In this document: positions 24,800 to 62,336 of the stretch, piece by piece
How the letters are laid out: each line of letters starts with the position of its first letter
Position numbering within the stretch: position 1 is the stretch's first letter
DNA from: Gemmatimonadaceae bacterium
Lineage (GTDB): Bacteria; Gemmatimonadota; Gemmatimonadetes; Gemmatimonadales; Gemmatimonadaceae
Reading direction: 5' to 3'
Assembly: GCA_020851035.1 (NCBI GenBank)
Contig: JADZDM010000025.1
Location: forward strand, 124,001-188,000
Length of the DNA stretch: 64,000 nucleotides
Position numbers and translations under genes: made by a program
The notes under the pieces: generated by a model
The model's input: the letters and a program-made list of their open reading frames with translations, nothing else
What the model was told of the DNA's origin: nothing
The model's database searches: none

Positions 24800-24852
24800 G
24801 TTCAAGGGGACGGGGATCTTGAACGCGAGGGAGTTCAAGGGGACGGGGATCC
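24800..24852 (+). repeat. Two units of the palindromic REP-like repeat
   Basis: The first unit (24800-24824) has the full inverted arms GTTCAAG and CTTGAAC around an 11-base centre, followed by a GCGA-type spacer. The second (24833-24852) has the left arm and centre but loses the right arm. They begin 10 bases after the stop of the PLP enzyme. They belong to the same family as the arrays at 38.6, 39.7 and 62.2 kb. Confidence 0.85.
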
Positions 24853-24944
24853 GGAAGGGCCGCTGTGACCGAGCCACGGGACGCGTGGTAGGCGCTCCGT
24901 CACCTCGTACCAGTCCGCCGCCACCTCGCACACCCGGGGCACTC

Positions 24945-37499: not shown

Positions 37500-37845
37500 G
37501 CACGCACGTGTGCCATCGCACGTGTGCCATCGCACGTGCGATCACACATGCGCACGAGCCTGCTGTGACGTGTTCGTGCGGCCCGCGCTGCATAAAACAA
37601 CCTCGGCTTCGTTTGTGAGTTTCCGCCAATGTGGGCGGCGCGGCCCGTGGTTGGTCGTTGCGTCCGCGCCCGGTGGTGTTGATTCGTGTCCACAGCGGAA
37701 AACGCCGAAAGCGGAAGGTTCGTCCGGATTTTGCTCCGATGCGCAGTGGTTTCCGCACCAAACGGGACTGGAGCGGCTGGCACACAACCTGATGGGTCAG
37801 GGACTGCGCACCGCGCCACGCAGTCTCATTCGTACAGGAGTTCCA
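37500..37845 (+). other. 346-base intergenic region before the PEP-CTERM gene
   Basis: Contains three regularly spaced CACGTG cores near its left end and a noticeably AT-richer middle (37590-37620), plus the start-proximal AGGAG at 37836-37840. TGGCAC at 37778 resembles a sigma-54 -24 element, but the matching GC at -12 is GA. No gene was seen. Confidence 0.5.
37505..37538. promoter_or_regulatory. Three CACGTG cores at 14-base spacing
   Basis: CACGTG at 37505, 37519 and 37533. The first two are in identical 14-base units (GCACGTGTGCCATC), and the third is in the larger palindrome CGCACGTGCG. The arrangement looks like an operator cluster for a dimeric regulator. Which gene it serves is unknown; the PEP-CTERM gene is downstream. 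Confidence 0.4.
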
Positions 37846-38511
37846 ATGCGTTCCAGCCGATTTGCGGCCCTGATCGGGTTGCTTGCAGTTGCCGCACCGC
37901 TCAGCGGTCAGGCGTTCACGAACGGCTCGCTCACGGGCCCGATCAACAATGGCGGCGTCCCGACCGGGTGGACGCTCGAGGCTGGCTCGCCTGACACCAT
38001 GGACGAGAACAACAACGTCGGTGTGCCGGGCGCGCTGGGCTTCGGCGCCGCGCCGAGCCCCAGCCCGGACGGCGGCACCTGGGTCGGCGTGGGTGGCGAA
38101 GGGGCCACCGGTTTCGTCGAGCGGTTCTCGCAGTCGGTGTCGGGCTTCACGGTCGGGCAGACGTACACCGTGAACTTCTACGCGTCGAACTTCGGTGCCG
38201 CCGACTTCGGCTACGTGGCCACGAACTTCTTCGAGATGCTGATCGACGGCGTGGCGATGGATTCGGGCGCGGACCTGCCCCTCGCGCCGGGCTGGACGCT
38301 GCAGACCCTGAGCTTCCTCGCCACGTCGGCGACGCACACGATCGCGTTCCAGCTCGGGGATGGTGCCAAGTCGTACATGGGCATCGACGGTATTTCGATC
38401 GCCGGCGGCATGAGCACGGTGCCGGAGCCGGCGACGACCGCGCTGCTGGGTGCCGGGCTGCTGGCGTTGGGCGGGATCGTGTCACGTCGTCGGCGCGCCA
38501 TGGCGGCCTGA
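37846..38511 (+). CDS. PEP-CTERM sorting domain protein
   Basis: 221 residues from ATG 37846, with AGGAG five bases upstream. A signal peptide (RFAALIGLLAVAAPLSGQA) is followed by a beta-sandwich domain with a Gly- and Asn-rich opening (GSLTGPINNGGVPTGW) and VGQTYTVNFYASNFG. The C-terminus has the full tripartite sorting signal: VPEPATTALLGAGLLALGGI, a hydrophobic helix, then SRRRRAMAA. Exosortase recognises this signal and releases the protein to the surface, often as part of exopolysaccharide biofilm matter. No exosortase is in the window. A strong hairpin follows the stop. Confidence 0.92.
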   Translation: MRSSRFAALIGLLAVAAPLSGQAFTNGSLTGPINNGGVPTGWTLEAGSPDTMDENNNVGVPGALGFGAAPSPSPDGGTWVGVGGEGATGFVERFSQSVSGFTVGQTYTVNFYASNFGAADFGYVATNFFEMLIDGVAMDSGADLPLAPGWTLQTLSFLATSATHTIAFQLGDGAKSYMGIDGISIAGGMSTVPEPATTALLGAGLLALGGIVSRRRRAMAA

Positions 38512-38573: not shown

Positions 38574-38605
38574 TGTGGTGGATCGGGGTGTTTCGCGGGG
38601 CCTGC

Positions 38606-38797
38606 TTCAAGGGGTCGGGGATCTTGAGTTCAAGGGGACGGGGATCTTGAACGCGACGGAGTTCAAGGGGACGGGGATCTCGAGTTCAAGGGGACGGAGA
38701 TCTTGAACGCGAGGTCGGTTCAAGGGGACGCGGATCTCGAGTTCAAGGGGACGGAGATCTTGAACGCGACGTCGGTTCAAGGGGACGGAGATCTTGA
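38606..38797 (+). repeat. Left REP-like array, seven units
   Basis: Units begin at 38606, 38628, 38661, 38684, 38718, 38741 and 38775. Two forms alternate: a full 25-base palindrome (arms GTTCAAG and CTTGAAC) followed by a GCGA-type spacer, and a 23-base form ending in CTCGA or CTTGA that runs straight into the next unit. The paired period is 56-57 bases. The central GACGG(A/G)G is nearly invariant. ACCGTCTG follows just past the end (38802). Confidence 0.9.
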
Positions 38798-38824
38798 CCG
38801 GACCGTCTGTGGCACGACACGCCA

Positions 38825-39562
38825 CTAGTGGCACCGAAGCTGTGCGAGGCCCGTTACCGCGATCCAGGACGACTGGTGGTGCCGACGATCCCCACCATGC
38901 GCAAGCCGACGTACCGGGCGGTTCAGGTGACGTTCGAGATCGTCGAGCCGTGCACTGTTGCCGAGCGCCGTCCCACCACGAGTGGCTCGCCGGATCTCGA
39001 GCACGCGCGCTTCATCGAGTTGCTCCGCACAGTACGCGGCGTACGATGCCCGTCGCGCCTCCGTGATCGTGTCGAGGGCCGTGTACGTCGGGTGCGGCGA
39101 CACGAGCTCATCCCTGTCGCCCAGCGCCAGCGCGCGGTAACTCGACCACTCGTACTCGGCAGGATGGTGCACGATCCCCGCCTTCACTGGATTCATGTCG
39201 ATGTACCGGCAGCAACGGAGCAGGTATTGGTCGTCACCCACGAGCGCGGACCTGAAACGCCCCTCCCATAGGGTTCCAGTGCGGCGATGCCGCTTGTTCC
39301 AATAGCGGACATACCGACTGCCGATACTGCGCATGAGATTGGCCGCGCTTCCGACTCCGCGCGGAGTCACGAGCATGTGGACGTGGTTCGACATCAGCGC
39401 GTATGCGTGGATCGCGCACGCGTAGCGCCTGCTGGACTCGAGCAGGCATTCGCGATAGCACGCGAAGTCCAGCTCGTCGAGGAACGTGCGATCCTGGTTG
39501 TGACCGCGCTGTGTGATGTGGATGGGAAGTCCGGGGGCGATCAGCCGCGGCCAGCGTGCCAT
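38825..39562 (-). CDS. REP-associated tyrosine transposase (RAYT, Y1_Tnp family)
   Basis: 245 residues from ATG 39562; the frame extends to 39679 but MARWPRLIAPGLPIHITQRG is the normal family start. The HUH metal motif is His60-Val-His62 in ALMSNHVHMLVTPRG. The catalytic tyrosine is Tyr120 in CRYIDMNPVKAGIV, followed by the family signature EYEWSSYRAL. Other landmarks are GTLWEGRFRSALVGDDQYLL and a C-terminal basic tail. Enzymes of this family cut and join single strands at REP hairpins. The gene looks intact, and its codon use is less GC-extreme than the neighbours, consistent with acquisition. Confidence 0.92.
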   Translation of the reverse strand: MARWPRLIAPGLPIHITQRGHNQDRTFLDELDFACYRECLLESSRRYACAIHAYALMSNHVHMLVTPRGVGSAANLMRSIGSRYVRYWNKRHRRTGTLWEGRFRSALVGDDQYLLRCCRYIDMNPVKAGIVHHPAEYEWSSYRALALGDRDELVSPHPTYTALDTITEARRASYAAYCAEQLDEARVLEIRRATRGGTALGNSARLDDLERHLNRPVRRLAHGGDRRHHQSSWIAVTGLAQLRCH

Positions 39563-39708
39563 GTCGGGATCCTGCGAGGACGTGAACGATGCGGCCGGAT
39601 TGGGCGATGGCGCGTGATGACGTCTCGAGTCTGTCGCGCGACCCGCGCGCGTGTCCAGCGAAAGCGACGCGTGCGACATCGAATACTTGCAACGTTAGGT
39701 GGAGCGCG

Positions 39709-39845
39709 GTTCAAGATCTCCGTCCCCTTGAACGCAAGATCTCCGTCCCCTTGAACCCGGTCGCGTTCAAGATCTCCGTCCCCTTGAACGCAAGATCTCC
39801 GTCCCCTTGAACCCGGTCGCGTTCAAGATCTCCGTCCCCTTGAAC
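39709..39845 (-). repeat. Right REP-like array, five units, inverted
   Basis: Units at 39709-39733, 39734-39756, 39765-39789, 39790-39812 and 39821-39845, all reverse complements of the left-array form. The period of the unit pair is exactly 56 bases (39709, 39765, 39821), and the copies are nearly identical, suggesting recent tandem duplication. Confidence 0.9.
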
Positions 39846-40151
39846 GTCGTCCCCGTGAACGACCGTCGCCGCGCAGCCCCGGCGGCGCTCGGGCAACTCC
39901 GGTACGTCGATCGCAACGTGAATGCAGGCGGAAGCCTGGTCATTTCGTCCCCTGTCACGGGAGATCTCGCGGCGCTCCTGGACGCAACCTGGACCGCACC
40001 GGTCACACTCGATGCGATCTTCCGCGCCGACTTCGCCCCCGCAGCCTCCGACCCCTCCATCGTCCCCGAACCCGCCACCAGCACCCTCCTCGGCACCGGC
40101 CTCCTGGTCCTCGCCACGCTCGCCACACGCCGCCGCCGCACACCACGCTGA
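39842..40151 (+). pseudogene. 3' remnant of a PEP-CTERM protein gene
   Basis: The frame ends with a complete sorting signal: IVPEPATSTLLGTGLLVLAT, then LATRRRRTPR. Upstream there are about 70 residues of beta-rich sequence (YVDRNVNAGGSLVISSPV, WTAPVTLDAIFRADFAP) that run back into the repeat array with no signal peptide and no ribosome site. The only starts lie inside the repeat units. The gene therefore seems to have lost its 5' half where the REP array now lies. A strong hairpin follows its stop, as expected of the original gene. Confidence 0.7.
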
Positions 40152-62185: not shown

Positions 62186-62336
62186 GTGCAAGGGGACGGG
62201 GATCTCGAGTTCAAGGGGACGGGGATCTTGAACGCGAGGTCGGTTCAAGGGGACGGAGATCTCGAGGTCAAGGGGACGGGGATGTTGAGTTCAAGGGGAC
62301 GGGGATGTTGAGTTCAAGGGGACGGGGATCCCTGAA
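62186..62336 (+). repeat. REP-like array at 62.2 kb, six units
   Basis: Units start at 62186, 62209, 62243, 62266, 62289 and 62312. Only the second is the full palindrome with arms GTTCAAG and CTTGAAC. The others are the short form, two of them with GATGTTGA in place of GATCTTGA, so this array is more diverged. A degenerate half unit may precede it at about 62171. ACCGTCTG follows, as after the left array at 38.8 kb. Confidence 0.85.

Follow-up and report, generated by a model that had tools for sequence, protein, structure and literature searches.

A RAYT gene between inward-facing arrays of a hairpin repeat with a conserved loop in a Gemmatimonadaceae genome

The RAYT gene and its inward-facing arrays

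The window examined here, a 64,000-nt stretch of a Gemmatimonadaceae genome (G000), carries on its reverse strand a 284-aa open reading frame for a RAYT, or TnpAY1 HuH-tyrosine transposase (38825..39679), recognised by protein family models, by alignment and by an AlphaFold2 model. The NCBIfam REP-associated tyrosine transposase model NF047646 matches it at 81.2 bits (cut-off 80) and Pfam Y1_Tnp (PF01797) at 43 bits, above the cut-off. The likely true start is Met40 at 39562, where the conserved MxRxPR start of the family aligns, giving a protein of 245 aa, and the original prediction of His-Val-His at 60-62 and Tyr120 is correct when this methionine is taken as residue 1. Across an alignment with 52 relatives the HuH motif (H60-V61-H62), the single Y120 and the NP at 124-125 are invariant or nearly so, with H60, H62, W99, Y120, N124 and P125 invariant. 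The AlphaFold2 model (pLDDT 87.6) finds its best PDB fold in 4er8, the E. coli TnpAREP-REP complex (E 1.5e-8, TM 0.73 on the target), to which the profile also leads as the closest solved structure; a search of the PDB with the single RAYT sequence returned no match, 4er8 being reached only via profile and fold. The intact RAYT proposed earlier is borne out by NF047646, PF01797 and the 4ER8 fold, and it is present as a single copy in its genome.

The protein reads SNHVH, LWEGRF and RYIDMNP where the consensus of its relatives is NHVH, LWEGRY and RYIELNP, and the NHVH, W[EQ] and YIELNP-like motifs listed for subclass 2.1 (Table 1 of PMC6006769) are present in it. The window RAYT matches the TnpAY1 subclass 2.1 ('TIRYT') kind, a putative assignment made from motifs only. 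This is one of the largest TnpAY1 subclasses and corresponds to Bertels group 1 (PMC6006769); NHVH, W-E, YIxxNP, a length near 240 aa and low intragenomic copy number are common to the subclass and the window protein. Subclass 2.1 has a C-terminal HTH, whereas no Pfam C-terminal HTH (Bac_DnaA_C, HTH_23, HTH_28) was detected in the window protein or in the 52-member alignment; a weak Bac_DnaA_C match occurs in a more distant relative (L047), and the AlphaFold2 model of the window protein has helices after residue 160.

As had been claimed, the gene lies between a seven-unit and a five-unit inverted array. Seven direct hairpin units, spaced 23 nt or 33-34 nt, face it from 38605..38799 on the plus strand, and five direct units in the opposite orientation face it from 39709..39845 on the minus strand. 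The arrays are made of units of GTTCAAGGGGACGGAGATCTTGAAC, a 25-nt imperfect palindrome, of which the reference unit, GTTCAAG-GGGACGGAGAT-CTTGAAC (38741..38765, plus strand), folds as single-stranded DNA into a 7-bp stem with an 11-nt loop (-3.8 kcal/mol, z -3.3) or, in the frame that applies clade-wide, a 5-bp stem with the 13-nt loop GGGGACGGAGATC. The palindrome with GTTCAAG and CTTGAAC arms described earlier stands as regards the arms, which are 82-100% complementary, but the units vary: the 23-nt core is exact in only five, the remaining units have 1-4 differences, and the first unit of the locus reads GGGGTCGG. On both sides of the gene GGGGACGG points inward, differing from the consensus GGGGWSAS in its seventh base, which is G and not A. 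Matches to the repeat number 16 in the window, with 0 expected from its dinucleotide shuffles, and include two dispersed copies on the plus strand, a pair of units 12 bp past the end of a co-oriented gene (24801..24856) and an array of five to six units (62187..62335). A CRISPR reading was rejected because the units abut or sit about 10 bp apart without variable spacers.

The RAYT unit is flanked by a PEP-CTERM gene (37845-38511) and by a C-terminal PEP-CTERM gene remnant (39847..40151, plus strand; TIGR02595 / PF07589), which abuts the right array and is context lying outside the unit.

A genome-specific repeat family and its co-distribution with RAYTs

The original prediction had proposed a genome-wide count of the repeat, and such a count shows that the repeat is dispersed as a family and occurs where this RAYT does. 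The pattern TTCAAGGGGACGG[AG]GATCTTGAA, with up to 2 mismatches, finds 141 units in the 4.97-Mb genome (80 plus, 61 minus), and the reversed control pattern finds 0; the figure is a lower bound, because several contigs (C10, C28 and C33) start or stop inside repeat arrays, where the assembly breaks. A closer survey of the stretches around some 40 sites, allowing up to four mismatches, yielded 151 units, 141 of them outside genes as called by a simple codon model. Neighbouring units are most often 23 or 33 nt apart, and the 111 neighbour pairs comprise 59 plus-plus, 40 minus-minus, 12 plus-minus and 0 minus-plus. Arrays tend to have their 5' end just past a gene of like orientation: within 80 bp after a gene end, 25 are sense and 5 antisense, a bias that depends on the approximate gene calls of the codon model. 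At one site (L169, G000:C2:55625-55881) window-type units are interleaved with repeats of the type that accompanies another RAYT of this genome, RAYT C (ATCGGTGACAGTGCAC), and the composite is partly duplicated.

The family is specific to this genome. With up to 2 mismatches allowed, the repeat was found in none of 147 other genomes of the family, two congeners included, and no relative lacking the RAYT had this repeat in comparable numbers; the 394 other genomes of the phylum gave one single stray match. When 84,980 species were scanned for the exact pattern, the window's own genome left out, none had it, so that no second organism with the window repeat came to light. No description of the repeat was found in the literature searched, where the papers listed by a text search with the motif letters were all on unrelated subjects, and the suggestion that the REP family may be undescribed holds to that extent.

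Comparison with the congeners is informative at one site (L192, C25:40429-40565), where both have 16-17 bp between a gene stop and the next start and G000 has about 470 bp, taken up by an array of six units together with a further inverted repeat. At the level of sequence, an insertion relative to the congeners is shown here; the empty site in the congeners is also without about 300 bp of other sequence. Adjoining the array is a second inverted-repeat element (CACGGAGGCACGG...CCGTGCCTCCGTG; L192:2566-2870, G000:C25), which presumably resembles a widespread intergenic repeat of the CACGGAGG type. Neither window site 24801 nor the second L192 array has a clean empty site in the congeners, because the intergenic regions have diverged. 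Around the RAYT itself the congeners are without the whole block from about 37.5 to 40.18 kb, RAYT and PEP-CTERM genes included, and one of them (G003) is additionally without most of the kinase gene that precedes the block. Because all of it is missing in both, no precise junction of a RAYT element can be placed, and the RAYT may have come in together with the PEP-CTERM gene region or as part of it.

The window genome carries two further RAYTs, L032 (C21:174785-175495) and L033 (C2:173141-173791), and each of its three RAYTs (A, that of the window, B and C) is flanked by a different repeat. That of RAYT B is CGGACTCTGTCCCCTTTCTGTGCC, whose core occurs in 13 copies in G000, and that of RAYT C is a family around CCGGTGACAGTGCAC with 69 copies. 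Within genus g22 the repeat GAGCTGGGGTC[AG]GAGCTGGGGTC is present in 57 copies in G068 and 73 in G108, the only species of the genus with a RAYT detected, and in 0-1 copies in the 11 g22 genomes without one. A quick tree places the window RAYT, with support 82, in a group with RAYT B of the same genome and the RAYT of Gemmatimonadaceae bacterium Prado135 (G008). The Prado135 RAYT (52% identical), among its nearest relatives in the tree, is accompanied by a sister repeat, TTCAAGGGGTCAGAGTCGTTGAA (L067 / L034), that has a stem GTTCAAG/CTTGAAC identical to that of the window repeat and, like it, a 13-nt loop and direct arrays; the loop reads GGGGTCAGAGTCC in Prado135 and GGGGACGGAGATC in the window. 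Among genomes that carry a RAYT, the sister repeat, searched as the pattern TTCAAGGGGTCAGAG[CT]CCTTGAA, reaches 168 copies in G008 and 115 in G028, and two others have 8-9. The expectation that copy number tracks the RAYT is thus upheld in G000, g22 and G008/G028 and fails in two genomes with no RAYT detected, G002 (42 copies) and G097 (21 copies), and there is no one-to-one match between copy number and the presence of a RAYT. It is possible that these copies are relics of a lost RAYT, or that they make use of an undetected one. Since REP families are reported to outlive their RAYT in many E. coli strains, the two exceptions weaken the link between RAYT and repeat and do not break it. The copies in G097 lie largely in inverted pairs about 30 bp apart.

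Conserved loop and covarying stem in related RAYT loci

The loci examined comprised 80 named from other genomes and fifteen from family searches, and about 76 related loci, from Proteobacteria, Nitrospirales and Gemmatimonadota, were analysed for motif and hairpin. Copies of the motif GGGGWSRS that lie no more than 350 bp from the RAYT are inward in 237 cases and outward in 33; beyond that distance, in 3.9 times as much DNA, the corresponding counts are 84 and 69. The motif is present on both RAYT flanks in 48/84 loci, and GGGGWSAS is matched exactly in most related loci. The five bases upstream of the motif pair with the five that follow a 13-nt loop, with a mean of 3.09 of 5 pairs as compared with 1.83 after shuffling (z 10.4, or 9.2 once duplicates are collapsed). 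This peak is common to every motif subtype and has no counterpart at other loop lengths. The stems covary, since the fully paired sequences differ between loci: seven distinct stems are fully paired (TTCAA/TTGAA, TCAAT/ATTGA, ATCAA/TTGAT, TAAAT/ATTTA, TAAGT/ACTTA, AAACC/GGTTT and AGTTT/AAACT), with AAAAA/TTTTT left out of the count, and by a strict definition only 18 of 78 related loci have all 5 bp of the stem paired. Loop position 9, which played no part in selection, is A in 72 of 77 loci, and the bases after the core (ACCA, WSTC, AGTA or AGCC) agree with the RAYT tree, on which they need 9 changes as compared with at least 24 in 200 label shuffles. The window genome is among the most amplified cases sampled.

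These features are best set beside two published accounts. The TIRYTs, or TIRtrons, of Di Nocera et al. (2013; PMC3733652) consist of a RAYT-like gene flanked by inverted repeats with GGGGWSAS in common, and some of the TIR families are repeated in the genome, some are self-complementary and some occur in dimers or clusters, at an abundance the authors called only moderate. The window RAYT likewise lies between inverted repeats with a shared motif, and its GGGGACGG is one base off that consensus; unlike that description, the window repeats form long direct arrays and amount to about 140 units, and the hairpin has a 13-nt loop that is fixed clade-wide. For subclass 2.1, neither the automatic nor the manual search of Quentin et al. 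(2018; PMC6006769) turned up REP-like sequences, and the authors considered the subclass probably to be the TIRYTs, whereas the window locus has clear REP-like sequences. It is reasonably likely that subclass 2.1, or group 1, of the RAYTs has REP-like hairpins of its own, in which GGGGWCRGA lies in a loop fixed at 13 nt, with no GTAG foot, so that the members of the subclass would read DNA through the loop.

Competing readings of the locus

The original prediction placed the locus among the standard REPtrons, in which, as in E. coli and Pseudomonas, a GTAG-type REP accompanies its RAYT, and much about the locus recalls that arrangement: the protein family is the same, and the palindrome is short, present in many copies, mostly intergenic and flanks the gene. 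The REPtrons of groups 2 and 3 (E. coli, S. maltophilia, Marinomonas; PMC8266576) also resemble it in that a HuH-Y RAYT, present once, is accompanied by hairpins both beside the gene and dispersed, and in group 3 the bases of the loop matter (PMC8266576). They have a 5' GTAG foot and short loops, however, and the window repeat has no such foot and a long conserved loop. Neither GT[AG]G, 0-2 nt 5' of the hairpin, nor CGTC is conserved beside the stem across 53 array edges, where the usual context is C-C-G before TTCAAG; the loop measures 11 nt in the fold and 13 nt in the clade-wide frame, as against the 2-5 nt, or the bulged long stem, of a canonical REP; and the W-E and YIDMNP motifs fit subclass 2.1 and not the REP-bearing subclasses. 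A canonical REPtron is very unlikely on these grounds, and the missing foot has already largely refuted it. The broad idea of the prediction is right, but the locus is better assigned to the TIRYT kind, as a loop-motif variant, than to the canonical REPtrons.

The TIRYT and TIRtron terminology itself invites a different reading, namely a plain transposon that has the arrays as its terminal inverted repeats and has given rise to the dispersed units by internal deletion or as MITEs, with movement as duplex DNA and no recognition of a hairpin. The inward-facing layout would suit such an element, as would the orientation of opposed neighbours, all 12 of which are plus-minus and none minus-plus, whereas 99 of the 111 neighbour pairs run in the same direction and are not TIR pairs, the RAYT is single copy, the stems covary round a fixed loop length for which a duplex TIR has no need, and Y1 enzymes of known mechanism work on single strands; we regard it as distinctly unlikely. 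Least probable is that the repeats are host elements, such as terminators, mRNA stabilisers or chromosome-structure sites, spread by recombination, with the RAYT among them by chance. Copies just past co-oriented genes, 25 sense to 5 antisense within 80 bp, are what this would lead one to expect, and REP-like elements can act on mRNA in that position, but the genome specificity and the matched repeats beside the three RAYTs of G000 and beside dozens of related RAYTs tell against it, as do the lack of a T tract like that of intrinsic terminators and an Rfam search of the RAYT locus that gave no match.

Most probably the locus is a RAYT with its cognate repeat, that is, a HuH/Y1 transposase of single-stranded DNA, belonging to the subclass 2.1 (TIRYT) kind, that recognises a small hairpin and has distributed copies of it across the genome. 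It is best read as a RAYT paired with a REP-like repeat in which the loop of the hairpin contains the conserved recognition motif, with binding and cleavage as steps that we infer. The Y1 enzymes already characterised attach to single-stranded DNA in its folded form and cut beside the fold, as has been established with IS608, ISDra2 and TnpAREP of E. coli. By analogy, the recognition element would be the GGGG-W-C-R-G-A of the loop within its 13 nt (here GGGGACGGAGATC), held by a stem whose sequence varies by lineage (here TTCAA/TTGAA); the RAYT would bind the folded strand via loop and stem, Tyr120 would cleave next to the hairpin, and the unit would be joined to new single-stranded targets, favoured just downstream of transcribed genes and in one orientation. 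Transfer to exposed single strands, perhaps behind the transcribing polymerase, could produce the gene-end and orientation bias, and arrays may grow by repeated insertion in the same direction or by slippage and unequal recombination.

Such a pair extends REP-like amplification to the Gemmatimonadota. The three RAYT/repeat pairs of one genome are ready cognate pairs for specificity swaps, and genus g22 offers a natural comparison, within a single genus, of species with and without a RAYT. The REP-negative result of the published survey left the substrate of subclass 2.1 open, and the loop-centred hairpin is a concrete candidate for it; searches tuned to GTAG feet and short loops would miss hairpins of this kind, because the conserved part sits in a long loop. 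Taken at the level of sequence comparison, these data suggest that REP-like sequences do exist for subclass 2.1 and are differently designed, with the conserved part in the loop.
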